This document shows, piece after piece, positions 6,425 to 59,640 of a stretch of 64,000 bases of DNA. The stretch's first letter is position 1. Each line of letters starts with the position of its first letter. The position numbers and the translations under genes were made by a program. The stretch is from NCBI RefSeq assembly GCF_041381155.1, contig NC_091144.1, forward strand, positions 20,655,544 through 20,719,543, written 5' to 3'. The stretch is from Argopecten irradians. Lineage: Eukaryota > Mollusca > Bivalvia > Pectinida > Pectinidae. The notes under the pieces are model-generated. The model saw nothing but the letters and a program-made list of their open reading frames with translations, made no database searches and was not told the DNA's origin.

Positions 6425-9199
6425 ATGGATGCTATTGGGACGTTGGAATTATCGTAAGTAGAGCTTTCACTTTCCTGAGATAAATTTGATTCCCTCGAAT
6501 CGCTGTCATTGTTTGAAAATGAAGAAAATATGGTTTTATTCAATAGATTAACTGACAGCGGCAAAAAGCAGGTGGTTGCAATATTGCCAGTCGATTGTTT
6601 ACAATAATCAGTCCATGCTTCCAGCTAAGAATAAGCAAGTTCATAATGCTGCTGGATAATTAATGATGTTCCCAAAGATAATGAATAACAATGATATACG
6701 AATTGTAATAAAGCCAATGCAGAAACATATAATTCTGGCCAATTGCATGCCCAAGTTTCAGCACCTTTAAATGTAGATTCCAAATTCAATTTCTTTTTGA
6801 ACAGGTGGGCCCAAGGCTATTCTGGGGCACGTGCGGCCTATGTTGACAAGGATGTCCTGTGTTACTTGTGTGGAAGCAACGTGAAGTTTGTTGCTGAAGA
6901 TGGAGCAGAGACGGTATTCAACTTCAAAGGAAATGGAGTTGGACCATTTGCAGTTCATCCAAATGCTAAATGCTTTGCTGTTGCTGAAAAATGCCTTAAT
7001 CCAAAAATATACATCTATGTTTATCCTACATTCCGCCAACTTGGAGTAATTGAAGGTACACTTGTACACTAAAGATTTTTTTCCGTTCGAAATTACAATT
7101 ATGATATAGTAGAATGTGTTCCTTGACACTTTTGTATCCATTACTGCATAACTACGTAGTTACATGTAGAAATTGATATAAATCAAAGACGTTAATGTTT
7201 TATCCGGGATACCTTTATAACGAATAACAATTTATCTTTACATTTGTTACATTTTTTTTAATTTCATTTACATTTTGTACAGGTGGTACCAAACTGGAAT
7301 ATAACAACATCGCCTTTTCTACCAGCGAATATCTGGCTACTGTTTCTGGTATCCCAGATTTCGAGTTGACATTCTGGTAAGCACATTTTCTTTTCAATGA
7401 TGAGTGGTAATGGTATTCTGATATCTATTGCAGTATCTTTCTAAAATTTTAAGATGCTCTGATATCTACTTTAATAGTTTTTAAAATATGCAAGCCTGAC
7501 TGTAATGAATTCTTAAATAGTCTGTCCCATACCAACATTTTCTACTTTTTAAAATATTTGGGGTTATTTTGAGTATAAAAAAATAATCTCTTAATGTTAT
7601 CTCTTATGTAATGAAGCAATTTTGACACTTTTGTTTTATTTGCTTGGTTCTATTCCTACATAGGAAATATACCACTGGGGCTAAGTTGACATCTGTGCAA
7701 GTAACCAACTCCCCAGTAAAATGTATCCAGTTCAACCCTGGAAACTGGCGCCAGATTTGCATTGGATCCGAGAAAGAACTTGCAGTTTGGCAAATGGAAC
7801 AAAGCAATGATGCTTACATGCTACAAGCTCAGTAGGTTTCTTTTGATTAAAAACTTCTTGATCATTTTTTAGGAATTGGAGATAATGCTGATGTATTATA
7901 AATGCATACAAAATAAACTTTGGTATCAAACATGAAGCATCATACATCAAATTTGGATAATAGTCGTTGTGTTTATAACTATCAAAAAGAGTTGTTTTGT
8001 CCTTCATGGTCATAAAACTGAATAGAATTATTATTTGTGTGATTTATATGTATGATATTTTTCAGGATTCAATAATTATAGATATTATGAATATCATACA
8101 AGTATATTAATTGCAAAGATACCATGATATTATATGGGTTTTTTTAAGTTATAGTGAAAAAAAACTTTTTTAATAAAAATTCAAGGTCCAGAAAATACAA
8201 TTTAACTTACAACATTTCAATTATCATTACTGCTTTTGAGAAGCCTATTTAGAGTCCATCATTTTGATCATTAAATCACTAATTTACAGGAAAGTAAAGT
8301 TGCCACATGAAGATGCCTCCTGGCTGGAGGAGGAAAAGGAAAAGGATCACAGTCAATCACGTGCGTCGACACGTATGAGTCGATACACAGTGGAAGTGCC
8401 TAAGGCAGCCATTGCTGGTTTGGTGGGTGATATGGATGACCGCCTGGAGGATATCCAGGATAAATCACCGCGTGTGGTGCCCTCGTCTGCTGCCTGGACA
8501 ACATCTGGTGATATCTATGTTGGATGTAAAGGAGGACATCTTTTAAGGGTTTGTTTTTTTTATATCTTATCATGGTTAATCTCAAGACGACATTTTGTAA
8601 CCAGGGTTGTTCATTCTCCTGACTACAGTCAAAGTGCATGGTCTATAAAGTAAAAAGAATTGATAAGGAATTGTCTTAGTTTTAAAGTTAGTGATAAAGT
8701 TCTGTCATGGTGTGACCAAAATTTGGAGTAGATAGTTACCAAAATTTGGAGTGAAAACCCTGGTATTTATTTTAGAAAAAAAATGTACTTCAATTGACTG
8801 AATCTAAATCCATAAATGTTTTTTAATGTTTCAACAAATTATTCTGTGTATAACATTGATACTGTTATGTCTTTGTGTACAAAACAAAGCCAAGGCCACT
8901 CAGCTTAAAAAAATACCCTTGCATATGATTTTGTTAATGTTATGTTATTGATTTAACACTTTTAGGTTGATGGGGAGACATTCAAAGCCCGAGTAGTCTA
9001 TCATCCCCCTCCTCGGGCCGAGACACCTATCTCTCGGGCCACCAGTGCTGCCAGTGCCAGTAGAGGTCCCTCTATGGCTGACTTTGGTCAGACAAGTAAG
9101 TGATCATTTAATATTAAAATTATGGCAATTGTGATGTAAGATAACTTTGAATTGCCATTTACATTTTAATTTATGTTCAACACTTTTGGTTTTTGTTTG

Positions 9200-21200: not shown

Positions 21201-24200
21201 CTCTTATATAATTATCTTGATTAAGAATCAAAATATTTCTCACTAATCTCCAATGTTATGAGCACATCGTGTATAAGTAAATGATACAGACTTAGTGAAA
21301 ATAATAAGGGGAAGTAACTCTGCATATTCCTATTTGTTCTCTATGTATTGATGTATCACACGCATTACTTATATCTAAGGCTTACATTGATTTTCCTATA
21401 TTAATATATATCAAATATTCAATTCTATATTTGTGTTTGGACGATGGAGACCATTGTGATTCCCGAATACCATTTAATTTTTACGATCTATATATTCTTC
21501 TTGTGTAGCTTTTACTTAGTATGATACATCAGCAAATGTATGGTAATGTAAGTAACTGCAAACATGGCATCATGGTGTTTTGAGGCCATTTCAAAACCAA
21601 ATAAGTTACTTATTTGGTCTTTGAAAATGGTCATTTCAAAAGTATTGTTAAATTTCTATCAAAATTCAGTCAGTTCATTTAGTTGGGACTCTACCCAAAC
21701 CAGCATTTGACTTATTGAATTTTGAAAAATTTTGCATATTTTATCATTATGATGCCATTACTATAACAAGCATGTCCATTGTTAATTTACATGTTCAATT
21801 CTTTGTTAAACTGTATTTTATGTCTTCACAGGAATTTTTTTTTATGATTAAAAACAAATGTTCATATTGTCAACTTATGGCTTATTCTTTTAAATGATAT
21901 TTGTGAATTTTTGAAAACAATTTAACAAATTCAAATAAATCAATACTTTTATGAAAATACTTTACCGTACTCTGAACAAAAGAAGAAACAGACTGCTTTA
22001 GACTTTAGAGGAATAAGCCATAAATATAACTTTAATTTCTTAGTTTAAAAATTGATGATTTTTATTTCTAGTTGTTACTTTCATTTCAACTGTTCACTGA
22101 AAAATGTTCAATTATTTATGTTTACAGAATTTTAGAGAGAAAAAAATCACATTTAAAATAACAGTTCACATTTCTTCTCCACCAATAACATCACTCTACT
22201 ATCTAGATTTCAATAAATAGTCACATTCAGACAATCAGCTTTTTTTACTCTCTTTTTCATCAATTATCTTTTTGATTATGCTGTGTATTCACAATTGTTC
22301 ATAAGGTTTTTATCTTTCGTTCACATTTTTTTTTCTATGTTTTAATAAGAAATAACATAATAGAACTATAAATCTTAAGGCCAACGTGTAAAAAATTACT
22401 ATTCTATTATTTATACTTATCTGTTTATATTAGCAATTGTTCGTTATAATTTGATCATAGATAATAGTATTAAAACATTAAATACATAATTTTCTCGATG
22501 ACATCGGCAATAAAATTGCTACATAGGGTAAGGATTACCAGGGCATCTTATCTTAACAGATCAAAGTGCCTAAAATAATTTAAAAAAATGCTTCCATGTC
22601 AACAACAAATCTACAGTTACAAATATTCTATAAGCTTTATACAAAACTAGTGTAAGTGCTGTTTGCGTCCACAAAGAAATACAAGTAAATATTAATGTCC
22701 AGGAGAAAATCTTAGTAAATTTGAATCAATTTGATTATAGTAAAAGCAGGCACTTACTTGGAGAAAGATGTGCCACTCATTTACATGTTTAATTTTTAAA
22801 CATGGGTGGCTTGTTGGGTAAGGTTATGGCCATATGTCCAATGTTATCATGTTTGTTTGGCTGGTGTAATTAGTTTTTTGATGTTTACACAGGAGGATGA
22901 CACAGGAGACAATGAGGATCTTGATGATGATGGCAAGGAGAAGCCCTCTACTACCGGCAGTCTGGGTAAGTCAAGGGGCGGATCTTACATTAGAGAGGCG
23001 GGGCATATGGTAGATAGGCGGGCCTGTAGAAGAGAGGCGGGGCCTGTGATAGAGAGATGGGGCCTGTTATAGAGAGGCGGGGCCTGTGATAAAGAGGCGG
23101 GGCCTATGATAAAAGCGGAGTCTAAGTTGGTAGACCAAACTCTCACGACTTACTAGCTTATTTGTTGTAAAGTGGAATTCTAGTGTGATTGTTGTAACTT
23201 TGTGAATGTTAATTGTCAATGTTGTTTGCAATTAACTTCCTTCACATAGTAATACTTTTTTGTCACAAACACCATTCCGAAAAATTCCCTTCAAACATCG
23301 GATTAACATGTGCTGTAAATTTCCTTGATGTCTGAAATGGTTATATTCTAGTTTGATTGTGTGTGTTGTTTAATATGATATAGATGTAGATAAATGTTGT
23401 GATGTTGGTTTTTTAGTAAAACACTTTTGTGGTGCTTTAATATTGTTGTGCCATTTAACTTGCTTTGGTTATGTTTGCTCCATTCCTATAGAATCTCAGT
23501 AATCATTACAGCACCTGTCCCTGACACGGTTTTACATTGTTGTGTTTATGTGCGTTGTTTTTATATCAATATTTCAGGAAATACCCTTGGTAAGTAATTT
23601 AACATACAATCGCTAAAGATATAAATAGAAAATATTTAACCAAAGTAGACAAAAATCTTATATCAGATAACAACACTTGACAGTTTATAGGATAATCAAC
23701 AATTGCATCAACTTTCCCTTCCTAAGAAATTCTTTTTGACTTGAATTAGCTAATTCATCCATGGAGACACAGTTGAACTTTTTTAGATATAAGACTGTAA
23801 CTGTTTATTATGACATATCGAACATGAATAAGATTAGAGAATAGTTTTAATCATTTCAATGGGTGTTTTCATCTATACACATATGCCTTTCTACCTAAAG
23901 GAAATATTTGAGGTGAAGATATTTCCAAATGAATATTATGAGGAAGTTGAGGTCTAATTGTAATGCATGGTCCCAAGGTCATGTTTTTTTTTTCAAAACA
24001 CCAATAATAAGTATCATAAGATTCCCTCCCCCCCCCAACCTCATAAATATTATATTGGAAAGCTCTCGCCCTTTATATATGCCAATTATCAGCATAACCA
24101 CGCAAAATAAACAAATTAAGACCAGCATGTATACATTTTCTATGTTCAGTTCATGTTTTTATTTTATTTTTACTTATTTGATTTCTTTTCTTTGATGAGT

Positions 24201-39600: not shown

Positions 39601-42600
39601 AGGCAGCGAGAAAGTATACAACTAGATGTCAGAATATTAATATTGTTGTCTCATTAACACGAGTTGTCTTATGACATTTGTCGTTTGTATCTTGTCTCAA
39701 TAAAACAAGTTTTCAAGTTACACGAGCTTTTGGTATTTTACTGACATCAGTTCTCATGTTTGCTGATATTGGTAAAACACTGAAACACAAAGTCTTTACC
39801 AATGCTTTATATTATTTCTAATTGGTTGCAGACGACTTGGATATGAAAGCGAGATATTGCCAGGCAGCCGATATAGTTATCATTGATGATTTGTAAGTAT
39901 CAAAGTCCGACAAAGTTATCATTGATGGTTTGTAAGTATAAAAATTCCGATATAGTTATCATTGATGGTTTGTAAGTATAAAAATTCCGATATAGTTATC
40001 GTTGATGATTTGTAAGTATCAAAGTCCGACAAAGTTATCATTGATGATTTGTAACTATCAAAGTCCGACATAGTTATCATTGATGATTTGTAAGTATCAA
40101 AGTCCGACAAAGTTATCATTGATGATTTGTAAGTATCAAAGTCCGACATAGTTATCATTGATGATTTGTATCAAAGTCCGTTATGATTGATGATTTGTAA
40201 GTATCAAAGTCCGACAAAGTTATCATTGATGATTTGTAAGTATCAAAGTCCGACATAGTTATCATTGATGATTTGTAAGTATCAAAGTCCTACATAGTTA
40301 TCATTGATGATTTGTAAGTATCAAAGTCCGACAAAGTTATCATTGATGATTTGTAATTATTAAAGTCCGACATAGTTATCATTGATGATTTGTAAGTATC
40401 AAAGTCCGACAAAGTTATCATTGATGATGTGTAACTATTAAAGTCCGACAAAGTTATCATTGATGATGTGTAACTATTAAAGTCCGACATAGTTATCATT
40501 GATGATTTGTAACTATTAAAGTCCGACATAATTATCATTGATGATTTGTAATTATTAAAGTCCGACATAGTTATCATTGATGATTTGTAAGTATCAAAGT
40601 CCGACAAAGTTATCATTGATGATTTGTAAGTATCAAAGTCCGACAAAGTTATCATTGATGATTTGTAAGTATCAAAGTCCGACAAAGTTATCATTGATGA
40701 TTTGTAAGTATCAAAGTCCGACAAAGTTATCATTGATGATTTGTAAGTATCAAAGTCCTACAAAGTTATCATTGATGATTTGTAAGTATCAAAGTCCGAC
40801 ATAGTTATCATTGATGATTTGTAAGTATCAAAGTCCGACAAAGTTATCATTGATGATTTGTAATTATTAAAGTCCGACAAAGTTATCATTGATGATTTGT
40901 AAGTATCAAAGTCCTACAAAGTTATCATTGATGATTTGTAAGTATCAAAGTCCGACATAGTTATCATTGATGATTTGTAAGTATCAAAGTCCGACATAGT
41001 TATCATTGATGATTTGTAAGTATCAAAGTCCGACATAGTTATCATTGATGATTTGTAAGTATCAAAGTCCGACATAGTTATCATTGATGATTTGTAAGTA
41101 TTCAAAGTCCGACATAGTTATCATTGATGATTTGTAAGTATCAAAGTCCGACATAGTTATCATTGATGATTTGTAAGTATCAAAGTCCGACATAGTTATC
41201 ATTGATGATTTGTAAGTATCAAAGTCCGACATAGTTATCATTGATGATTTGTAAGTATCAAAGTCCGACATAGTTATCATTGATGATTTGTAAGTATCAA
41301 AGTCCGACATAGTTATCATTGATGATTTGTAAGTATCAAAGTCCTACAAAGTTATCATTGATGATTTGTAAGTATCAAAGTCCGACATAGTTATCATTGA
41401 TGATTTGTAAGTATCAAAGTCCGACATAGTTATCATTGATGATTTGTAAGTATCAAAGTCCGACATAGTTATCATTGATGATTTGTAAGTATAAAAAGTC
41501 CGACATAGTTATCATTGATGATTTGTAAGTATCAAAGTCCGACAAAGTTATCATTGATGGTTTGTAAGTATCAAAAGTCCGACATAGTTATCATTGATGA
41601 TTTGTAAGTATCAAAGTCCGACATAGTTATCATTGATGATTTGTAAGTATCAAAGTCCGACATAGTTATCATTGATGATTTGTAAGTATCAAAGTCCGAC
41701 ATAGTTATCATTGATGATTTGTAAGTATCAAAGTCCGACAAAGTTATCATTGATGATTTGTAAGTATCAAAGTCCACATAGTTATCATTGATGATTTGTA
41801 AGTATCAAAGTCCGACATAGTTATCATTGATGATTTGTAAGTATCAAAGTCCGACATAGTTATCATTGATGATTTGTAAGTATCAAAGTCCGACATAGTT
41901 ATCATTGATGATTTGTAAGTATCAAAGTCCGACATAGTTATCATTGATGATTTGTAAGTATCAAAGTCCGACATAGTTATCATTGATGATTTGTAAGTAT
42001 CAAAGTCCGACATAGTTATCATTGATGATTTGTAAGTATCAAAGTCCGACATAGTTATCATTGATGATTTGTAAGTATCAAAGTCCGACATAGTTATCAT
42101 TGATGATTTGTAAGTATCAAAGTCCGACATAGTTATCATTGATGATTTGTAAGTATCAAAGTCCGACATAGTTATCATTGATGATTTGTAAGTATCAAAG
42201 TCCGACATAGTTATCATTGATGATTTGTAAGTATCAAAGTCCGACATAGTTATCATTGATGATTTGTAAGTATCAAAGTCCGACATAGTTATCATTGATG
42301 GTTTGTAAGTATAAAAAGTCCGACATAGTTATCATTGATGATTTGTAAGTATCAAAGTCCGACATAGTTATCATTGATGATTTGTAAGTATCAAAGTCCG
42401 ACATAGTTATCATTGATGATTTGTAAGTATCAAAGTCCGACATAGTTATCATTGATGATTTGTAAGTATCGAAGTCAGACATAGTTATCATTGATGATTT
42501 TTGTAAGTATCAAAGTCCGACATAGTTATCATTGATGATTTGTAAGTATCAAAGTCCGACATAGTTATCATTGATGATTTGTAAGTATCGAAGTCCGACA

Positions 42601-45600
42601 TAGTTATCATTGATGATTTGTAAGTATCAAAGTCCGACATAGTTATCATTGATGATTTGTAAGTATCAAAGTCCTACATAGTTATCATTGATATTTTGTA
42701 AGTATTTAAAGTCCGACAAAGTTATCATTGATGATTTGTAATTATTAAAGTCCGACAATAGTTATCATTGATGATTTGTAAGTATCAAAGTCCGACAAAG
42801 TTATCATTGATGATTTGTAAAGTATCAAAGTCCGACATAGTTATCATTGATGATTTGTATATAAATCGACAAGTTATCATTGATGATTTGTAATATCAAA
42901 GTCCGACATAGTTATCATTGATGATTTGTAATTATCAAAGTCCGACATAGTTATCATTGATGATTTGTAATATCAAAGTCCGACAAGTTATCATTGATGA
43001 TTTGTAAGTATAAAGTCCGACATAGTTATCATTGATGATTTGTAAGTTTTATTAAAGTCGACATAGTTATCATTGATGATTTGTAAGTATCAAAGTCCGA
43101 CATAGTTATCATTGATGATTTGTAAGTATCAAAGTCCGACATAGTTATCATTGATGATTTGTAAGTATCAAAGTCCGACATAGTTATCATTGATGATTTG
43201 TAAGTATCAAAGTCCGACATAGTTATCATTGATGATTTGTAAGTATCAAAGTCCGACATAGTTATCATTGATGATTTGTAAGTATCAAAGTCCGACATAG
43301 TTATCATTGATGATTTGTAAGTATCAAAGTCCGACATAGTTATCATTGATGATTGATGATTTGTAAGTATCAAAGTCCGACATAGTTATCATTGATGATT
43401 TGTAAGTATCAAAGTCCGACATAGTTATCATTGATGATTTGTAAGTATCAAAGTCCGACATAGTTATCATTGATGATTTGTAAGTATCAAAGTCCGACAA
43501 AGTTATCATTGATGGTTTGTAAGTATCAAAGTCCGACATAGTTATCATTGATGATTTGTAAGTATCAAAGTCCGACAAAGTTATCATTGATGATTTGTAA
43601 GTATCAAAGTCCGACATAGTTATCATTGATGATTTGTAAGTATCAAAGTCCGACATAGTTATCATTGATGATTTGTAAGTATCAAAGTCCGACAAAGTTA
43701 TCATTGATGATTTGTAAGTATCAAAGTCCGACATAGTTATCATTGATGATTTGTAAGTATCAAAGTCCGACATAGTTATCATTGATGATTTGTAAGTATC
43801 AAAGTCCGACATAGTTATCATTGATGATTTGTAAGTATCAAAGTCCGACATAGTTATCATTGATATTTTGTAAGTATCAATGTCCGACATAGTTATCATT
43901 GATGATTTGTAAGTATCAAAGTCCGACATAGTTATCATTGATGATTTGTAAGTATCAAAGTCCGACATAGTTATCATTGATGATTTGTAAGTATCAAAGT
44001 CCGACATAGTTATCATTGATGATTTGTAAGTATCAAAGTCCGACATAGTTATCATTGATGATTTGTAAGTATCAAAGTCCGACATAGTTATCATTGATGA
44101 TTTGTAAGTATCAAAGTCCGACATAGTTATCATTGATGATTTGTAAGTATCAAAGTCCGACAAAGTTATCATTGATGATTTGTAAGTATCAAAGTCCGAC
44201 ATAGTTATCATTGATGATTTGTAAGTATCAAAGTCCGACATAGTTATCATTGATGATTTGTAAGTATCAAAGTCCGACATAGTTATCATTGATGATTTGT
44301 AAGTATCAAAGTCCTACATAGTTATCATTGATGATTTGTAAGTATCAAAGTCCGACATAGTTATCATTGATGATTTGTAAGTATCAAAGTCCGACATAGT
44401 TATCATTGATGATTTGTAAGTATCAAAGTCCGACATAGTTATCATTGATGATTTGTAAGTATCAAAGTCCGACATAGTTATCATTGATGATTTGTAAGTA
44501 TCAAAGTCCGACATAGTTATCATTGATGATTTGTAAGTATCAAAGTCCGACATAGTTATCATTGATGATTTGTAAGTATCAAAGTCCGACATAGTTATCA
44601 TTGATGATTTGTAAGTATCAAAGTCCGACATAGTTATCATTGATGATTTGTAAGTATCAAAGTCCGACATAGTTATCATTGATGATTTGTAAGTATCAAA
44701 GTCCGACATAGTTATCATTGATGATTTGTAAGTATCAAAGTCCGACATAGTTATCATTGATGATTTGTAAGTATCAAAGTCCGACATAGTTATCATTGAT
44801 GATTTGTAAGTATCAAAGTCCGACATAGTTATCATTGATGATTTGTAAGTATCAAAGTCCGACATAGTTATCATTGATGATTTGTAAGTATCAAAGTCCG
44901 ACATAGTTATCATTGATGATTTGTAAGTATCAAAGTCCGACATAGTTATCATTGATGATTTGTAAGTATCAAAGTCCGACATAGTTATCATTGATGATTT
45001 GTAAGTATCAAAGTCCGACATAGTTATCATTGATGATTTGTAAGTATCAAAGTCAGACATAGTTATCATTGATGATTTGTAAGTATCAAAGTCCGACATA
45101 GTTATCATTGATGATTTGTAAGTATCAAAGTCCGACATAGTTATCATTGATGATTTGTAAGTATCAAAGTCCGACATAGTTATCATTGATGATTTGTAAG
45201 TATCAAAGTCCGACATAGTTATCATTGATGATTTGTAAGTATCAAAGTCCGACATAGTTATCATTGATGATTTGTAAGTATCAAAGTCCGACATAGTTAT
45301 CATTGATGATTTGTAAGTATCAAAGTCCGACATAGTTATCATTGATGATTTGTAAGTATCAAAGTCCGACATAGTTATCATTGATGATTTGTAAGTATCA
45401 AAGTCCGACATAGTTATCATTGATGATTTGTAAGTATCAAAGTCCTACATAGTTATCATTGATATTTTGTAAGTATCAAAGTCCGACATAGTTATCATTG
45501 ATGATTTGTAAGTATCAAAGTCCGACATAGTTATCATTGATGATTTGTAAGTATCAAAGTCCGACATAGTTATCATTGATGATTTGTAAGTATCAAAGTC

Positions 45601-48600
45601 GACATAGTTATCATTGATGATTTGTAAGTATCAAAGTCCGACATAGTTATCATTGATGATTTGTAAGTATCAAAGTCAGACATAGTTTATCATTGATGAT
45701 TTGTAAGTATCAAAGTCCGACATAGTTATCATTGATGATTTGTAAGTATCAAAGTCCGACATAGTTATCATTGATGATTTGTAAGTATCAAAGTCCTACA
45801 TAGTTATCATTGATGATTTGTAAGTATCAAAGTCCTACATAGTTATCATTGATGATTTGTAAGTATCAAAGTCCGACATAGTTATCATTGATGATTTGTA
45901 AGTATCAAAGTCCGACATAGTTATCATTGATGATTTGTAAGTATCAAAGTCCGACATAGTTATCATTGATGATTTGTAAGTATCAAAGTCCGACAAAGTT
46001 ATCATTGATGATTTGTAAGTATCAAAGTCCTACAAAGTTATCATTGATGATTTGTAAGTATCAAAGTCCGACATAGTTATCATTGATGATTTGTAAGTAT
46101 CAAAGTCCTACATAGTTATCATTGATGATTTGTAAGTATCAAAGTCCGACATAGTTATCATTGATGATTTGTAAGTATCAAAGTCCGACATAGTTATCAT
46201 TGATGATTTGTAAGTATCAAAGTCCGACATAGTTATCATTGATGATTTGTAAGTATCAAAGTCCGACAAAGTTATCATTGATGATTTGTAAGTATCAAAG
46301 TCCTACAAAGTTATCATTGATGATTTGTAAGTATCAAAGTCCGACATAGTTATCATTGATGATTTGTAAGTATCAAAGTCCGACATAGTTATCATTGATG
46401 ATTTGTAAGTATCAAAGTCCTACATAGTTATCATTGATGATTTGTAAGTATCAAAGTCCGACATAGTTATCATTGATGATTTGTAAGTATCAAAGTCCGA
46501 CATAGTTATCATTGATGATTTGTAAGTATCAAAGTCCGACATAGTTATCATTGATGATTTGTAAGTATCAAAGTCCGACATAGTTATCATTGATGATTTG
46601 TAAGTATCAAAGTCCGACATAGTTATCATTGATGATTTGTAAGTATCAAAGTCCGACATAGTTATCATTGATGATTTTGTAAGTATCAAAGTCCGACATA
46701 GTTATCATTGATGATTTGTAAGTATCAAAGTCCGACATAGTTATCATTGATGATTTGTAAGTATCAAAGTCCGACATAGTTATCATTGATGATTTGTAAG
46801 TATCAAAGTCCGACAAAGTTATCATTGATGATTTGTAAGTATCAAAGTCCGACATAGTTATCATTGATGATTTGTAAGTATCAAAGTCCGACATAGTTAT
46901 CATTGAGATTTTTTATCATTGACATGTTATCATTGATGTAATTGTATCAAAGTCCGACACATAGTTATCATTGATGATTTGTAAGTATCAAAGTCCGACA
47001 TAGTTATCATTGATGATTTGTAAGTATCAAAGTCCGACATAGTTATCATTGATGATTTAGTAATTTGTAAGTATCAAAGTCCGACAAAGTTATCATTGAT
47101 GATTTGTAAGTATCAAAGTCCGACATAGTTATCATTGATGATTTGTAAGTATCAAAGTCCGACATAGTTATCATTGATGATTTGTAAGTATCAAAGTCCG
47201 ACATAGTTATCATTGATGATTTGTAAGTATCAAAGTCCGACATAGTTATCATTGATGATTTGTAAGTATCAAAGTCCGACATAGTTATCATTGATGATTT
47301 GTAAGTATCAAAGTCCGACAAAGTTATCATTGATGATTTGTAAGTATCAAAGTCCGACATAGTTATCATTGATGATTTGTAAGTATCAAAGTCCGACATA
47401 GTTATCATTGATGATTTGTAAGTATCAAAGTCCGACATAGTTATCATTGATGATTTGTAAGTATCAAAGTCCTACATAGTTATCATTGATGATTTGTAAG
47501 TATCAAAGTCCTACATAGTTATCATTGATGATTTGTAAGTATCAAAGTCTCGACATAGTTATCATTGATGATTTGTAAGTATCAAAGTCCGACAAAAGTT
47601 ATCATTGATGATTTGTAAGTATCAAAGTCCGACATAGTTATCATTGATGATTTGTAAGTATCAAAGTCCGACATAGTTATCATTGATGATTTGTAAGTAT
47701 CAAAGTCCGACATAGTTATCATTGATGATTTGTAAGTATCAAAGTCCTACATAGTTATCATTGATGATTTGTAAGTATCAAAGTCCGACATAGTTATCAT
47801 TGATGATTTGTAAGTATCAAAGTCCGACATAGTTATCATTGATGATTTGTAAGTATCAAAGTCCGACATAGTTATCATTGATGATTTGTAAGTATCAAAG
47901 TCCGACATAGTTATCATTGATGATTTGTAAGTATCAAAGTCCGACATAGTTATCATTGATGATTTGTAAGTATCAAAGTCCGACATAGTTATCATTGATG
48001 ATTTGTAAGTATCAAAGTCCGACATAGTTATCATTGATGATTTGTAAGTATCAAAGTCCGACATAGTTATCATTGATGATTTGTAAGTATCAAAGTCCAG
48101 ACATTAGTTATCAATTGATGATTTGTAAGTATCAAAGTCAGACATAGTTATCATTGATGATTTGTAAGTATCAAAGTATCAAAGTCCTACATAGTTATCA
48201 TTGATGATTTGTAAGTATCAAAGTCAGACATAGTTATCATTGATGATTTGTAAGTATCAAAGTCCGACATAGTTATCATTGATGGTTTGTAAGTATCAAA
48301 TCCGACATAGTTATCATTGATAATTTGTAAGTATCAAAGTCCGACAAAGTTATCATTGATCATTTGTAACTATCAAAGTCCGACATAAGTTATCATTGAT
48401 GGTTTGTAAGTATCAAAGTCCGACAAGTTATCATTGATGATTTGTAAGTATCAAAGTCCGACAAAGTTATCATTGATGATTTGTAATATCAAAGTCCGAC
48501 ATAGTTATCATTGATGTTTGTAAGTATCAAAGTCCGACAAAGTTATCATTGATGATTTGTAAGTATCAAAAGTCCGACATAGTTATCATTGATGATTTGT

Positions 48601-51600
48601 AAGTATCAAAGTCCGACATAGTTATCATTGATGATTTGTAAGTATCAAAGTCCGACATAGTTATCATTGATGATTTGTAAGTATCAAAGTCCGACATAGT
48701 TATCATTGATGATTTGTAAGTATCAAAGTCCGACATAGTTATCATTGATGATTTGTAAGTATCAAAGTCCGACATAATTATCATTGATTTTGTAAGTATC
48801 AAAGTCCGATGTTATGATCATGACCCCTGATATTTGTAAGTATCAGTCGACATTATCATGATGGTTTGTAAGTATCAAAGTGGACACTCTGAGGTGTTGA
48901 TCAGTGGACACCTCTGAGGTTTGTTATGATCAGTGGACACCTCTGAGGTTTGTTATGATCATGGACACCTCTGAGGTTTGTTATGATCAATGGACACCTC
49001 TGAGGTTTGTTATGATCAGTGGACACCTCTGAGGTTTGTTATGATCAGTGGACACCTCTGAGGTTTGTTATGTTCAATTGATGAGGTTTGTTATGATCAA
49101 TGGACACCTCTGAGGTTTGTTATGATCAATGGACACCTCTGAGGTTTGTTATGATCAATGGACACCTCTGAGGTTTGTTATGATCAGTGGACACCTCTGA
49201 GGTTTGTTATGATCAATGGACACCTCTGAGGTTTGTTATGATCAGTGGACACCTCTGAGGTTTGTTATGATCAGTGGACACCTCTGAGGTTTGTTATGAT
49301 CAGTGGACACCTCTGAGGTTTGTTATGATCAGTGGACACCTCTGAGGTTTGTTATGATCAGTGGACACCTCTGAGGTTTGTTATGATAAGTGGACACCTC
49401 TGAGGTTTGTTATGATCAGTGGACACCTCTGAGGTTTGTTATGATCAAGTGGACACCTCTGAGGTTTGTTATGATCATGGACACCTCTGAGGTTTGTTAT
49501 GATAAGTGGACACCTCTGAGGTTTGTTATGATCAGTGGACACCTCTGAGGTTTGTTATGATCAGTGGACACCTCTGAGGTTTGTTATGATCAGTGGACAC
49601 CTCTGAGGTTTGTTATGATCAGTGGACACCTCTGAGGTTTGTTATGATCAGTGGACACCTCTGAGGTTTGTTATGATCAGTGGACACCTCTGAGGTTTGT
49701 TATGATCAGTGGACACCTCTGAGGTTTGTTATGATCATGGACACCTCTGATGTTATGATCAGTGGACACCTCTGAGGTTTGTTATGATCAGTGGACACCT
49801 CTGAGGTTTGTTATGATCAGTGGACACCTCTGAGGTTTGTTATGATCAGTGGACACCTCTGAGGTTTGTTATGATCAATGGACACCTCTGAGGTTTGTTA
49901 TGATCAATGGACACCTCTGAGGTTTGTTATGATCAGTGGACACCTCTGAGGTTTGTTATGATCAATGGACACCTCTGAGGTTTGTTATGATCATGGACAC
50001 CTCTGAGGTTTGTTATGATCAGTGGACACCTCTGAGGTTTGTTATGATCAGTGGACACCTCTGAGGTTTGTTATGATCAGTGGACACCTCTGAGGTTTGT
50101 TATGATCAGTGGACACCTCTGAGGTTTGTTATGATCATGGACACCTCTGAGGTTTGTTATGATCAGTGGACACCTCTGAGGTTTGTTATGATCAATGGAC
50201 ACCTCTGAGGTTTGTTATGATCAGTGGACACCTCTGAGGTTTGTTATGATCAGTGGACACCTCTGAGGTTTGTTATGATCAGTGGACACCTCTGAGGTTT
50301 GTTATGATCAATGGACACCTCTGAGGTTTGTTATGATCAATGGACACCTCTGAGGTTTGTTATGATCAATGGACACCTCTGAGGTTTGTTATGATCAATG
50401 GACACCTCTGAGGTTTGTTATGATCAATGGACACCTCTGAGGTTTGTTATGATCAGTGGACACCTCTGAGGTTTGTTATGATCAATGGACACCTCTGAGG
50501 TTTGTTATGATCAGTGGACACCTCTGAGGTTTGTTATGATCAATGGACACCTCTGAGGTTTGTTATGATCAGTGGACACCTCTGAGGTTTGTTATGATCA
50601 ATGGACACCTCTGAGGTTTGTTATGATCAATGGACACCTCTGAGGTTTGTTATGATCAATGGACACCTCTGAGGTTTGTTATGATCAATGGACACCTCTG
50701 AGGTTTGTTATGATCAATGGACACCTCTGAGGTTTGTTATGATCAGTGGACACCTCTGAGGTTTGTTATGATCAGTGGACACCTCTGAGGTTTATGTTAT
50801 GATCAGTGGACACCTCTGAGGTTTGTTATGATCAGTGGACACCTCTGAGGTTTGTTATGATCAATGGACACCTCTGAGGTTTGTTATGATCAATGGACAC
50901 CTCTGAGGTTTGTTATGATCAATGGACACCTCTGAGGTTTGTTATGATCAATGGACACCTCTGAGGTTTGTTATGATCAATGGACACCTCTGAGGTTTGT
51001 TATGATCAATGGACACCTCTGAGGTTTGTTATGATCAATGGACACCTCTGAGGTTTGTTATGATCAGTGGACACCTCTGAGGTTTGTTATGATCAATGGA
51101 CACCTCTGAGGTTTGTTATGATCAATGGACACCTCTGAGGTTTGTTATGATCAGTGGACACCTCTGAGGTTTGTTATGATCAGTGGACACCTCTGAGGTT
51201 TGTTATGATCAGTGGACACCTCTGAGGTTTGTTATGATCAGTGGACACCTCTGAGGTTTGTTATGATCAATGGACACCTCTGAGGTTTGTTATGATCAAT
51301 GGACACCTCTGAGGTTTGTTATGATCATGGACACCTCTGAGGTTTGTTATGATCAATGGACACCTCTGAGGTTTGTTATGATCATGGACACCTCTGAGTG
51401 TTTTTGTTATTATGATCAGTGGACACCTCTGAGGTTTGTTATGATCAGTGGACACCTCTGAGGTTTGTTATGATCAATGGACACCTCTGAGGTTTGTTAT
51501 GATCAATGGACACCTCTGAGGTTTGTTATGATCAATGGACACCTCTGAGGTTTGTTATGATCAGTGGACACCTCTGAGGTTTGTTATGATCATGGACACC

Positions 51601-54600
51601 TCTGAGGTTTGTTATGATCAGTGGACACCTCTGAGGTTTGTTATGATCAATGGACACCTCTGAGGTTTGTTATGATCAATGGACACCTCTGAGGTTTGTT
51701 ATGATCAGTGGACACCTCTGAGGTTTGTTATGATCAGTGGACACCTCTGAGGTTTGTTATGATCAGTGGACACCTCTGAGGTTTGTTATGATCAATGGAC
51801 ACCTCTGAGGTTTGTTATGATCAATGGACACTCTCCGAGAGTTTGTTATGATCAGTGGACACCTCTGAGGTTTGTTATGATCAATGGACACCTCTGAGGT
51901 TTGTTATGATCAGTGGACACCTCTGAGGTTTGTTATGATCAATGGACACCTCTGAGGTTTGTTATGATCAGTGGACACCTCTGAGGTTTGTTATGATCAA
52001 TGGACACCTCTGAGGTTTGTTATGATCAGTGGACACCTCTGAGGTTTGTTATGATCAGTGGACACCTCTGAGGTTTGTTATGATCAATGGACACCTCTGA
52101 GGTTTGTTATGATCAATGGACACCTCTGAGGTTTGTTATGATCAGTGGACACCTCTGAGGTTTGTTATGATCAATGGACACCTCTGAGGTTTGTTATGAT
52201 CAGTGGACACCTCTGAGGTTTGTTATGATCAATGGACACCTCTGAGGTTTGTTATGATCAATGGACACCTCTGAGGTTTGTTATGATCAGTGGACACCTC
52301 TGAGGTTTGTTATGATCAATGGACACCTCTGAGGTTTGTTATGATCAGTGGACACCTCTGAGGTTTGTTATGATCAGTGGACACCTCTGAGGATTTGTTA
52401 TGATCAATGGACACCTCTGAGGTTTGTTATGATCAGTGGACACCTCTGAGGTTTGTTATGATCAGTGGACACCTCTGAGGTTTATGATCAGTGGACACCT
52501 CTGAGGTTTGTTATGATCATGGACACCTCTGAGGTTTGTTATGATCAGTGGACACCTCTGAGGTTTGTTATGATCAATGGACACCTCTCTGAGGTTTGTT
52601 ATGATCAATGGACACCTCTGAGGTTTGTTATGATCAGTGGACACCTCTGAGGTTTGTTATGATCAGTGGACACCTCTGAGGTTTGTTATGATCAGTGGAC
52701 ACCTCTGAGGTTTGTTATGATCAGTGGACACCTCTGAGGTTTGTTATGATCAATGGACACCTCTGAGGTTTGTTATGATCAATGGACACCTCTGAGGTTT
52801 GTTATGATCAATGGACACCTCTGAGGTTTGTTATGATCAGTGGACACCTCTGAGGTTTGTTATGATCAATGGACACCTCTGAGGTTTGTTATGATCAATG
52901 GACACCTCTGAGGTTTGTTATGATCAGTGGACACCTCTGAGGTTTGTTATGATCAATGGACACCTCTGAGGTTTTGTTATGATCAATGGACACCTCTGAG
53001 GTTTGTTATGATCAATGGACACCTCTGAGGTTTGTTATGATCAGTGGACACCTCTGAGGTTTGTTATGATCATGGACACCTCTGAGGTTTGTTATGATCA
53101 ATGGACACCTCTGAGGTTTGTTATGATCAGTGGACACCTCTGAGGTTTGTTATGATCAGTGGACACCTCTGAGGTTTGTTATGATCAGTGGACACCTCTG
53201 AGGTTTGTTATGATCAGTGGACACCTCTGAGGTTTGTTATGATCATGGACACCTCTGAGGTTTGTTATGATCAGTGGACACCTCTGAGGTTTGTTATGAT
53301 CAGTGGACACCTCTGAGGTTTGTTATGATCAGTGGACACCTCTGAGGTTTGTTATGATCAGTGGACACCTCTGAGGTTTGTTATGATCAGTGGACACCTC
53401 TGAGGTTTGTTATGATCAGTGGACACCTCTGAGGTTTGTTATGATCAGTGGACACCTCTGAGGTTTGTTATGATCAGTGGACACACCTCTGAGGTTTGTT
53501 ATGATCAATGGACACCTCTGAGGTTTGTTATGATCAATGGACACCTCTGAGGTTTGTTATGATCAGTGGACACCTCTGAGGTTTGTTATGATCAGTGGAC
53601 ACCTCTGAGGTTTGTTATGATCAATGGACACCTCTGAGGTTTGTTATGATCAGTGGACACCTCTGAGGTTTGTTATGATCAGTGGACACCTCTGAGGTTT
53701 GTTATGATCAGTGGACACCTCTGAGGTTTGTTATGATCAGTGGACACCTCTGAGGTTTGTTATGATCAATGGACACCTCTGAGGTTTGTTATGATCAGTG
53801 GACACCTCTGAGGTTTGTTATGATCAGTGGACACCTCTGAGGTTTGTTATGATCAGTGGACACCTCTGAGGTTTGTTATGATCAGTGGACACCTCTGAGG
53901 TTTATGATCAGTGGACACCTCTAAGGTTTGTTATGATCAATGGACACCTCTGAGGTTTGTTATGATCAGTGGACACCTCTGAGGTTTGTTATGATCAGTG
54001 GACACCTCTGAGGTTTGTTATGATCAGTGGACACCTCTGAGGTTTGTTATGATCAGTGGACACCTCTGAGGTTTGTTATGATCAGTGGACACCTCTGAGG
54101 TTTGTTATGATCAGTGGACACCTCTGAGGTTTGTTATGATCAGTGGACACCTCTGAGGTTTGTTATGATCAGTGGACACCTCTGAGGTTTGTTATGATCA
54201 GTGGACACCTCTGAGGTTTGTTATGATCAGTGGACACCTCTGAGGTTTGTTATGATCAGTGGACACCTCTGAGGTTTGTTATGATCAGTGGACACCTCTG
54301 AGGTTTGTTATGATCAGTGGACACCTCTGAGGTTTGTTATGATCAGTGGACACCTCTGAGGTTTGTTATGATCAGTGGACACCTCTGAGGTTTGTTATGA
54401 TCAGTGGACACCTCTGAGGTTTGTTATGATCAATGGACACCTCTGAGGTTTGTTATGATCAGTGGACACCTCTGAGGTTTGTTATGATCAATGGACACCT
54501 CTGAGGTTTGTTATGATCAGTGGACACCTCTGAGGTTTGTTATGATCAGTGGACACCTCTGAGGTTTGTTATGATCAATGGACACCTCTGAGGTTTGTTA

Positions 54601-57600
54601 TGATCAGTGGACACCTCTGAGGTTTGTTATGATCAGTGGACACCTCTGAGGTTTGTTATGATCATGGACACCTCTGAGGTTTGTTATGATCAGTGGACAC
54701 CTCTGAGGTTTGTTATGATCAGTGGACACCTCTGAGGTTTGTTATGATCAATGGACGCCTCTGAGGTTTGTTATGATCAATGGACACCTCTGAGGTTTGT
54801 TATGATAATGGACACCTCTGAGGTTTGTTATGATCAATGGACACCTCTGAGGTTTGTTATGATCAGTGGACACCTCTGAGGTTTGTTATGATCAATGGAC
54901 ACCTCTGAGGTTTGTTATGATCAGTGGACACCTCTGAGGTTTGTTATGATCAATGGACACCTCTGAGGTTTGTTATGATCAGTGGACACCTCTGAGGTTT
55001 GTTATGATCAGTGGACACCTCTGAGGTTTGTTATGATCAGTGGACACCTCTGAGGTTTGTTATGATCAATGGACACCTCTGAGGTTTGTTATGATCAGTG
55101 GACACCTCTGAGGTTTGTTATGATCAGTGGACACCTCTGAGGTTTGTTATGATCAGTGGACACCTCTGAGGTTTGTTATGATCAGTGGACACCTCTGAGG
55201 TTTGTTATGATCAGTGGACACCTCTGAGGTTTGTTATGATCAGTGGACACCTCTGAGGTTGTTATGATCAGTGGACACCTCTGAGGTTTGTTATGATCAG
55301 TGGACACCTCTGAGGTTTGTTATGATCAGTGGACACCTCTGAGGTTTGTTATGATCAGTGGACACCTCTGAGGTTTGTTTATGATCAATGGACACCTCTG
55401 AGGTTTGTTATGATCAGTGGACACCTCTGAGGTTTGTTATGATCAGTGGACACCTCTGAGGTTTGTTATGATCAGTGGACACCTCTGAGGTTTGTTATGA
55501 TCAGTGGACACCTCTGAGGTTTGTTATGATCATGGACACCTCTGAGGTTTGTTATGATCAGTGGACACCTCTGAGGTTTGTTATGATCAGTGGACACCTC
55601 TGAGGTTTGTTATGATCATGGACACCTCTGAGGTTTGTTATGATCAGTGGACACCTCTGAGGTTTGTTATGATCAGTGGACACCTCTGAGGTTTGTTATG
55701 ATCAGTGGACACCTCTGAGGTTTGTTATGATGATCAGTGGACACCTCTGAGGTTTGTTATGATCAATGGACACCTCTGAGGTTTGTTATGATCAGTGGAC
55801 ACCTCTGAGGTTTGTTATGATCAGTGGACACCTCTGAGGTTTGTTATGATCAATGGACACCTCTGAGGTTTGTTATGATCAGTGGATACCTCTGAGGTTT
55901 GTTATGATCAGTGGACACCTCTGAGGTTTGTTATGATCAGTGGACACCTCTGAGGTTTGTTATGATCAGTGGACAACTCTGACGTTTGTTATGATCAGTG
56001 GACACCTCTGAGGTTTGTTATGATCAGTGGACAACTCTGAGGTTTGTTATGATCAGTGGACATCTCTGAGGTTTGTTATGATCAGTGGACACCTCTGAGG
56101 TTTGTTATGATCAGTGGACACCTCTGAGGTTTGTTATGATCAGTGGACACCTCTGAGGTTTGTTATGATCAGTGGACACCTCTGAGGTTTGTTATGATCA
56201 GTGGACACCTCTGAGGTTTGTTATGATCAGTGGACAACTCTTAGGTTTGTAATGATACTTTGTTGAAGACTGTTTTATTTTTAGTTAAGTTGATAAACGT
56301 TTGTCAGTCATGTTAATTCCATATGGGAATACTTTGTTTCCTTTTTGCGATATGTAAACACTTTTAACTGTGATTTTCGGTTCTGTTGTCTCTATCCTAG
56401 AATTAAATCATTAGCAAACATTTGTTTCATCATCGATGCCCGCTATATACAAATCAATGCAAAAAAGGCACGAATGCGTGTTGTTATTTCCAACATTCAG
56501 CAATGCCATCAACTTCGCTAATCAAAGTTATTCAGCCGAAATTCAATGCCATGAAACGAACTCACCAGACGCTGAAAAGCTTTGAGCACAAATTGATAGC
56601 GCTACGAAAACCTTTTGAAAAATAAACAGATTATACAAATCAACACTTAGATAATAACAGCATGCATATGTAAAATAGCTGTCATATATGGAATTATTTG
56701 TCGATTGCAGTTGCGCAGTAGAACCGGAACTATTTGGTAACTTTTGGAAAATAAAACAAGGAACACTTATCAGTGAGTTCGGTGCGTTCCGAACGACCAA
56801 CTTTGATGGAGGGTCGGTTATGATGAACTTTACCTGTATTCTTCAGCTATGCCAAGGACCATGCGTTCCGGTGAGTTCACGTACTTACTACATGTATTAT
56901 TAAGTTTGGAGGCGTCCCGAAAACAAATGAAATCTATTTACCAGTTACCGCTACAGACATCCATCTGATATCAAAGATATGCTAATTTTTCTAGAACTAT
57001 TGACATTTATTCATATACCCTGAATACAGAAATAAGAAAACAATTAATCATTAAATGCTTAAAGGGTATATTTTCATTTGTTGAAGACACCGTTGTTAAC
57101 ATGAACATTTATTGAAGGACAACCCTATATTAGCAACAGTCTGCCTTTTTAATATATATTGTGCTGCTGCCATTTGCTAATAACGGTATTTTGATCCTCT
57201 AGACCATATTAGTTATTGGTGATGCGCGAGCATTATTGAAGTATTTCTCATATAAAATTAAAAAATAAATTTCACATTTCAAATCCAGTCTAAATGTGGA
57301 GATAGTTACACGGGCTGGGGACGTAAGCGGCGTGACGCACAACTCGGCGGAGGACTTGAGCAGACGACGTACAATGAGGAGACTATTGATGTCGGTGGAG
57401 CTGTGAACGTGGTGGAAAAGTACTCAGACATAAGTAGGTACAAATGGTAATCCCTGAGTGTCTTCTGGAGAGTGATATAGCCTGTACGTGTTCAAACAAT
57501 GTAACAAATGATAGTCACGAATTCTGAAGAAACTAGTACTCATTAAAAATCGTACTATAGATTCTAGTAAATGGCTCGTTGAGACTATGGCAAACTAATC

Positions 57601-58032
57601 GAATGAAACGAGATCAACAGAACACGAAAACATACTAAAGAATATTTGTTTGTAGTCAGAATACTGCCATAGAAATAAGAAAACACAAGTATTATCGCCA
57701 ATGGTGAGCATTCAGTGGTAGGATGGAGGTCCATTCCCAAATAGACTTAAAGTTTGCTTTCAAATTATCCCCGATCGATGATTGTATCTGAATTTAATGC
57801 CGGGTGTTTCAATTTTGCATTTTCAGAAGTTTTGACGAACGAAGATTTTTGCTGGGACAAATTGGGGATAAGTCTACTAATCACATTCTTGTGCGCATGT
57901 GCCATAGGACCATCTGTCGGATGTTTTCTGCTGTACCGGAAGCTACTCATTTGCCAAAAGATGCTTCGGGATGTTACAAAATTCAGCAGGCCAGCATCAC
58001 AGAAAATGTCGGCCGCAGCTATTCTTAAGTAG
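36686..58032 (+). CDS. ZP-domain transmembrane protein (signal peptide, ZP-N, ZP-C, furin site)
   Basis: Eight exons join in perfect phase to 363 residues: 36686-36761, 37586-37749, 38158-38282, 39259-39413, 39832-39892, 56711-56870, 57289-57433, 57827-58032. Residues 1-20 are a signal peptide (MDTLTPFLFVMTCLMFAHAQ). ZP-N follows with the usual pattern (LIFIKGQGEDC, FRVVIQRLSAFQTGADKQI, VMCIANTDD). ZP-C shows ARYCQAADIVIIDDFC and GTLISEFGAFR, then a C-x3-C-x3-C run in LQLCQGPCVPSKC. GRKRRD near residue 265 is a furin-like cleavage site, the normal processing point before the C-terminal propeptide. ISLLITFLCACAIGPSVGCF is a membrane segment before a short basic tail. Such proteins polymerise into extracellular matrices after cleavage. 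It resembles invertebrate ZP proteins but I assign no orthologue. Intron 5 splits ZP-C and is about 16.8 kb of satellite. Confidence 0.9.
37300..37337. repeat. Perfect 16-bp hairpin, ZP gene intron 1
   Basis: AGAATCAAGTGACATG and its exact inverse complement are separated by only six bases (TCAGAG). The hairpin lies about 250 bp before exon 2. It is too short for a typical animal microRNA precursor. It may be the remnant of a small palindromic element. Confidence 0.8.
39868..48880 (+). repeat. 39-bp satellite built from an exon 5 / splice-donor junction, ~230 copies
   Basis: The founding unit is visible at the left edge: the last 25 bases of ZP exon 5 (CCGATATAG ... GATGATTT, 39868-39892) plus the first 14 bases of intron 5 (GTAAGTATCAAAGT). 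About 9.0 kb of head-to-tail copies follow. Nearly every copy keeps the donor GTAAGT. The consensus differs from the founder mainly by CCGACATAG or CCGACAAAG for CCGATATAG. Units are varied near both ends (39900-40900 and 46900-48880) and almost identical in the middle, as expected from unequal exchange. Variants CCTAC, CAGAC and one-base indels mark subgroups. The unit is a multiple of three and stop-free on the minus strand, so long antisense frames arise automatically. Confidence 0.97.
48881..56256 (+). repeat. 29-bp satellite with two palindromes per unit, ~250 copies
   Basis: Head-to-tail copies of a unit starting TGGACACCTCTGAGG and ending GTTATGATCAG. Variants are CAG, CAA or a one-base-shorter CA before TGG. 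Each unit carries ACCTCTGAGGT (5-bp arms around one base) and the palindrome TGATCA. The units are very uniform throughout; edge copies at 48881-48920 and 55860-56256 are slightly diverged. The 29-bp period is not a multiple of three, so only short open frames arise. No exon or promoter of the host gene resembles the unit, so its origin is unknown. It is in the same intron as, and directly continues from, the 39-bp array. Confidence 0.97.
56257..56710 (+). other. Non-satellite remainder of ZP gene intron 5
   Basis: Only about 450 bp of ordinary sequence separate the 29-bp array from exon 6. It ends in GTCGATTGCAG, the acceptor. An open frame at 56422-56625 has no recognisable features and does not fit the splice phases, so it is not called. 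Confidence 0.6.
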
Positions 58033-58852: not shown

Positions 58853-59640
58853 GGTACCGACTGTATACTCAATGGTACCCACTGTATACCAATGGAACCG
58901 ACTGTATACTCAATGGAACCAATGGTACCGACTGTATACCAATGGTACCGACTGTTTACAATTGGTACCGACTGCATACCAATGGTACCGACTGTATAAT
59001 CAATGGTACCGACTGTATACCATTGGCACCGACTGTATACTCAATGGTATCGACTGTATTACCAATGGTACCGACTGTATTACCATTTGTATCGACTGTA
59101 TACTCAATGGTACCGACTGTAATCCCGATGGTATCGACTGTATTCCCAATGGTACCGACTGTATTCCCAATGGTACCGACTGTAAACTCAATGGTATCGA
59201 CTGTATTACCAATGGTACCCCAATGGTACCGACTGTATACAATGTACCAATGGTACCGACTGTATACTCAAAGGTATCGACTGTATAACCAATGGTACCG
59301 ACTGTATTCCAAATGGTACCGAATGTATATCATTGGTACCGACTGTATTCCCGATGGTACCGACTGTATTACCAATGGTACCGACTCTATACTCAAAGGT
59401 ATCGACTGTATAACCAATGGTACCGACTGTATTCCAAATGGTACCGAATGTATATCATTGGTACCGACTGTATTCCCGATGGTACCGACTGTATTACCAA
59501 TGGTAACGACTGTATTCCCATTGGTACCGACTGTATTCCCAATGGTACCGACTGTATACCATTGGTACCGACTGTATACTCAATGGTATCGACTATATAC
59601 TCAATGGTACTGACTGTATACCATTGGGTACCGACTGTAC
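58853..59640 (+). repeat. 20/21-bp minisatellite rich in palindromes, ~38 copies
   Basis: Copies read GGTACCGACTGTATACCAAT, or a 21-base form with CTCAAT at the end. Each has the palindrome GGTACC and usually GTATAC. Variants include GGTATCGACTG, TATTCC and TATAAC. A longer block is itself duplicated: the segment around 59262-59380 recurs around 59384-59505. The unit lacks stop codons in several frames, so open frames up to 290 codons appear by arithmetic and are not evidence of a gene. Confidence 0.95.

Follow-up and report, generated by a model that had tools for sequence, protein, structure and literature searches.

The analysed window is a 64,000-nucleotide (nt) stretch of the genome of the bivalve Argopecten irradians (NCBI RefSeq assembly GCF_041381155.1, contig NC_091144.1, positions 20,655,544 to 20,719,543 of the forward strand, read 5' to 3'); the G+C content of the sequence is low (34%), which, like repeat motifs of kinds known from molluscs, would fit a mollusc rather than a lancelet. 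It contains, on the plus strand, a gene with eight coding exons (36686-58029, followed by the stop codon TAG at 58030), whose fifth intron is occupied in large part by a 39-nt tandem array that begins inside exon 5 and carries more than 200 copies of the exon-5 splice donor. The gene model was built by eye from the sequence and then checked by script for frame, phases and GT/AG sites. The spliced frame was found to be open over 363 codons, the phases are consistent and the introns have GT and AG sites. Exon 5 (39832-39892, plus strand, 61 nt) ends at the presumed true 5' splice site GTAAGTAT (39893-39900, plus strand), which is joined by a phase 2 junction to the acceptor at 56711. This acceptor belongs to exon 6 (56711-56870, plus strand, according to the gene model) and closes intron 5, which spans 39893 to 56710 and thus measures 16,818 nt.

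The first-pass annotation of this DNA had labelled the host gene as ZP, a label that found no support from either profile or structure matches. No Pfam family was found for the whole spliced protein of 363 amino acids or for three parts of it, and the PDB gave nothing for the whole protein and, for one part, a single unrelated weak match (E 1.6). Pairwise scores lay within those of shuffled sequences, the score with uromodulin being reached by 1332 and that with GP2 by 833 of 5000 shuffles. By eye only, the C-terminal cysteine spacing, a basic cleavage-like site and a membrane segment look ZP-like. The product is therefore called a possible ZP-like protein, and a diverged ZP protein is conceivable; the findings on the array are independent of the identity of the gene.

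Two adjoining arrays make up 97% of intron 5, one with a 39-nt unit (53.4%) and one with a 29-nt unit (43.9%). Tandem Repeats Finder placed the 39-nt array at 39868-48809, with a period of 39, 229.1 copies and 96% matches. Wrap-around segmentation of 39868-48890 yielded 232 segments, the last of which (9 nt) belongs to the 29-nt array and was discarded, leaving 231 units that end at 48881 (39868-48881, plus strand). The consensus measures 39 nt; gap-free units of exactly this length account for 191 of the 231, and 140 are identical. The first unit (39868-39906, plus strand) consists of the last 25 nt of exon 5 (39868-39892) and the first 14 nt of the intron, and it is here that the periodicity ends. 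The left edge of the array is sharp, since only 11 of the preceding 39 nt agree with the unit. Compared to the consensus, this founder has a single difference, T instead of C at unit position 5, which is synonymous because GAT and GAC both code for Asp. The T is present in units 1, 3 and 4 and in the rearranged unit 230 but in none other of the 232 segments and is, therefore, clustered beside the founder. Thus, a 9-kb array of about 230 copies grown from an exon/intron boundary, with the founder still in place at its left edge, as described in the first-pass annotation, was confirmed by the segmentation, the sharp edge and the one-base difference.

The exon part of the founder belongs to an open frame that runs in phase through exons 4, 5 and 6. 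Among the 14 splice junctions of the host gene, the exon-5 donor is the only one with near-identical copies within 2 kb; the best ungapped matches of the other 13 junctions within this distance cover 16 to 22 of 32 positions. Unit-like sequence was not found elsewhere in the window, where the best ungapped match to the 31-nt core of the unit has nine mismatches. A 28-nt piece of the unit had no exact match in collections of virus and prokaryote contigs, which is uninformative with respect to animals. Growth of the satellite from the exon/intron junction is supported by these data, as far as one sequence can support it.

The number of differences per unit, determined in blocks of 20 units, was 2.3 in units 1-20 and between 0.05 and 1.7 in the inner blocks, with no smooth gradient. 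For the last 12 segments, among them two rearranged units and the 9-nt piece, it amounted to 5.17. Inner units are, hence, homogenised and edge units diverged, the contrast being modest on the left side. Higher-order repeats were not detected: no lag up to 24 stood out, and the maximum of six variant matches was reached at both lag 1 and lag 7. It had been stated that all later copies repeat the unit, and this holds for most of them, but the last two (48806-48881, plus strand), as delimited by the segmentation, are rearranged 39-type units with sequence resembling the 29-nt unit inside.

The 29-nt array (48882-56256, plus strand; Tandem Repeats Finder and segmentation) follows without a gap and comprises about 255 copies, none with GTAAGT but with GTTATG 249 times. 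At the GT of its TTTGT motif the predicted energy of the duplex with U1 RNA was +0.7 kcal/mol at 248 of the 249 scored sites (7 of 256 segments were dropped). A relationship between the two consensus units was not significant in local alignment (score 12, compared to shuffle means of 11.8 and 12.9). When free rotation was allowed, the similarity was matched by 52 of 300 shuffles and by 121 of 300 29-mers from the window, and in the register of the junction by 52 shuffles and 192 window 29-mers out of 5000 each. The transition unit at 48806-48847 has 11 straight bases in common with the 29-nt unit (score 27, without a matched control), which is compatible with common descent of the two units or with recombination between them. 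Two main types of 29-nt unit can be distinguished by position 28, with G in 150 and A in 73 of the 223 full units; both types are intermingled along most of the array and the G type prevails at the right end.

Copies of the donor are abundant in the 39-nt array. GTAAGT occurs 213 times, GTAAGTAT 212 times and TTTGTAAGTATC 205 times, and 18 of the 231 units are without GTAAGT. By chance, a mean of 3.9 and a maximum of 11 GTAAGT would be expected, as judged from 200 mononucleotide shuffles of the array bases. The density of GTAAGTAT is 23.5 per kb in the array of approximately 9 kb, compared to 0.05 per kb (two occurrences) in positions 1-39800 of the window. GTAAGTAT forms eight contiguous pairs with the 5' end of U1, and the predicted duplex energy of the presumed true donor is -7.3 kcal/mol, within the range of the seven donors of the host gene (-5.6 to -11.9). 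A prediction for each unit, which had been proposed in advance as a check, covered 227 sites in segments containing TTTGT (5 of 232 segments were dropped) and gave the same energy as the true donor at 212 of them. The earlier figure of some 230 near-identical 5' splice sites was, therefore, right in that the donor of most copies matches the true one but slightly too high, because only 213 units have GTAAGT and 212 have GTAAGTAT.

The position of exon 5 in the reading frame determines what a later donor would do to the protein. Since exon 5 ends in phase 2, the donor bases are read as TT-G TAA, which is an in-frame stop. Reading beyond the first donor gives a protein ending in DIVIIDDL, with the TAA lying within the unit-1 donor, and use of any later donor, or retention of the intron, leads to the same end ahead of exons 6-8. 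Every wrong choice of donor is thus predicted to yield one and the same short protein without exons 6-8 or to expose the mRNA to nonsense-mediated decay.

Next, the donor columns of the unit were compared to all other columns in units 2-229, leaving out the founder and the two rearranged units at the end. Changes were found at 25 of 1824 donor positions and at 129 of 7068 others (Fisher p = 0.23), and unique variants at 22 of 440 compared to 87 of 1705 (p = 1). Because changes affect donor columns and other columns at similar rates, there is no sign in these units of selection for or against the copied donors.

It had been claimed that no described satellite class is defined by amplification of a 5' splice-site junction, which does not hold, since exon/intron-junction minisatellites have been published for lancelet genes (termed mirages), for human IFI6 and for human paralogs. 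The minisatellite across an exon/intron junction of human IFI6 (6-16, G1P3) was reportedly described by Turri et al. in 1995 and is said to lie at the exon-2 boundary, with a unit of 12 bp and about 26 copies. In lancelets, tandem duplication of exon/intron boundaries was described under the name mirages (PMC3087553, PMC3902484), with Adh3 and the globins BflGb6 and BflGb9 as hosts (PMC3087553), to which troponin C was added and the repeats of PGBD5 likened (PMC3902484). Either boundary can be affected, and the length is unstable, at Adh3 also in the soma (PMC3087553). Units range from 10 to 160 bp, with 10-72 bp in Adh3, 150-160 bp in the globins and 60 and 108 bp in PGBD5, and the copy numbers compared here are six and three in the two BflGb6 haplotypes and three in one PGBD5 repeat (PMC3087553, PMC3902484). 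The array in A. irradians resembles these repeats in that its units run across an exon/intron boundary and the genic copy lies at its edge (39868-39906), its unit of 39 nt lies inside the reported size range, the splice signal is preserved in many though not all units (213 of 231 with GTAAGT) and its edges escape homogenisation, as do cluster edges in the lancelet (PMC3087553). It differs by its 231 copies. By all structural features that were compared, the array can be placed among the mirages.

In human IFI6, two repeat units further downstream reportedly serve as donors, giving rise to three mRNA species (PMC4526556), whereas later donors in the scallop gene would lead to a stop. Variable tandem repeats at exon-intron boundaries of recent human paralogs alter splicing, with transcript support; those that change gene structure have on average 30-bp units, four repeats and a total of 160 bp (PMC2812944), and are thus minisatellites at exon-intron boundaries like the present array but with a mean of four copies instead of 231. 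A published single tandem duplication across an intron/exon boundary, which included the splice signals and created a new intron, shares the boundary-spanning duplication; the array described here is without an evident new exon. Boundary repeats are not described in the available portions of PMC4732748 and of PMC12783039, which deals with intron minisatellites of earthworm metallothionein. Boundary repeats that supply one intron with donor copies in the hundreds were not found among the literature matches listed, which covered few subscription papers. In sum, the array is real, was correctly outlined by the first-pass annotation and is striking in scale, and the kind of repeat is already known.

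Taken together, we propose with a probability of about 0.72 that the array is a junction-born, mirage-like minisatellite of far larger copy number, of which the first donor is most likely used while the copies are mostly passed over. The exon-5/intron-5 junction would have been duplicated in tandem, and the resulting minisatellite would have spread into intron 5 by slippage or unequal exchange. Exon definition favours an exon of 61 nt. The first donor is most likely the one in use, because it defines such an exon together with the acceptor before 39832, and the later copies would be ignored or only rarely used and the array would be tolerated by the gene. This is in line with the lancelet mirages, which seem not to interfere with splicing, as judged from reverse transcription PCR and from data on Adh3 (PMC3087553, PMC3902484).

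Several observations weigh against this proposal. Up to 520 nt from the acceptor of exon 5 there are ten GTAAGTAT sites, counting the true one, and their use would give exons of 61-482 nt; exon definition by itself would therefore leave room for leakage. GTAAGT is missing more often near the exon (from 7 of the 19 units 2-20, compared to 11 of the 211 units 21-231; p = 0.00015). Such an enrichment could reflect selection against near decoys. However, units 2-20 are more diverged in all columns, donor columns and others alike (9 of 152 and 34 of 589), and some of the units without GTAAGT are near-identical neighbours; we take the enrichment, without proof, as decay of the array edge. In addition, the human cases come in here, as IFI6 reportedly splices from two repeats downstream (PMC4526556) and human boundary repeats can generate alternative splicing patterns (PMC2812944), and the authors of the mirage study themselves mention a possible cryptic use of repeat splice sites (PMC3087553).

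An alternative is a leaky or regulated choice of donor, by which some transcripts would use later units and either encode a shortened protein lacking the membrane segment or be degraded, copy number tuning the output. We regard this as possible but clearly the less probable reading: the ten equal donors near the acceptor, the identical stop behind every later donor and the two human precedents speak for it, but the donor columns are without constraint and lancelet mirages were reported to produce no aberrant mRNAs (PMC3902484). A further reading, with more than 200 equal donors in competition for a single acceptor and the frequency of first-donor choice governed by copy number, is rather unlikely. 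If true, the array would be a heritable and rapidly mutating dial on the output of full-length protein, because every other choice of donor ends in the same stop.

Another function that could be envisaged is that of a platform, in which hundreds of U1 sites hold the U1 small nuclear ribonucleoprotein on the nascent RNA and shield the intron from early cleavage and polyadenylation (telescripting). The eight contiguous pairs with U1 and the high density of sites in the array fit this idea, which we nevertheless consider improbable. The long intron is itself a product of the array, and AATAAA is absent from the 39-nt array and ATTAAA occurs in it only eight times; both motifs are absent from the 29-nt array, and the remainder of the intron has each of them once. 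With so few polyadenylation motifs there is, therefore, little for U1 to protect. Furthermore, the donor columns show no constraint, and the adjoining 29-nt array is similar in size yet devoid of GTAAGT.

The order of events could also have been the reverse, a pre-existing satellite having been inserted and its first unit adopted as the end of exon 5. The exon end and the consensus are only one base apart, and homogenisation could mask the direction. We find this order quite improbable, however: the exon part reads in frame and its phase agrees with that of exon 6, the unit core has no close match in the window outside the array, and the ends of the unit have no splicing meaning, as would be expected from a random duplication breakpoint. 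Very improbable is an assembly artefact that inflated or invented copies, since, although long arrays are prone to error and one draft genome contained a misassembled lancelet mirage (PMC3087553), the many distinct unit variants, the units with indels, the diverged edges and the two different adjoining arrays are unlike a simple duplication error; the assembled copy number of 231 may not be exact.

Coding on the minus strand was rejected, since the one open frame of the unit on that strand (a 13-residue repeat) is split into many open reading frames (ORFs) along the array and one open frame of six in a 39-nt unit is unremarkable. A functional RNA was not indicated either, with no Rfam match in the window at the gathering threshold. 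Folding of one 39-nt unit was not better than that of shuffled sequences (z -0.59, 52 of 200 as good), three tandem 39-nt units reached z -1.98 (6 of 200 as good), which is taken as chance pairing between repeats, and three 29-nt units z -1.06.

Other repeats are present in the window. At the left end lies a 155-nt repeat (1-578, about 3.7 copies), followed by a 53-nt array (982-1355, about seven copies) whose minus strand has GGTAAGT six times, with no linked exon evident. A 20-nt array (22991-23111) starts approximately 25 nt after a GTAAGT at 22966, by eye an intron start of the upstream gene, and its units are without a donor. This upstream gene is CFAP43, as five of the eight ORFs compared to Pfam match the Cfap43 coiled-coil family PF25828 (27299-32889; E 3.1e-23 to 2.4e-08). 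ORFs from 6695 on presumably resemble earlier CFAP43 exons; the ORF at 6695-7069 had no Pfam match. Past the stop codon of the host gene, about 38 copies of a 21-nt unit (GGTACCGACTGTATACTCAAT) form an array with 76% matches that extends from 58853 to 59639.

The array constitutes a natural test of 5' splice-site choice, with 212 sites of identical predicted U1 pairing facing one acceptor, in which right and wrong donors are separated mainly by their position relative to the upstream acceptor. Compared to the few copies reported in the available literature, it extends exon/intron-boundary minisatellites to hundreds of copies, and it illustrates that the duplication of one junction can build more than half of a 17-kb intron.

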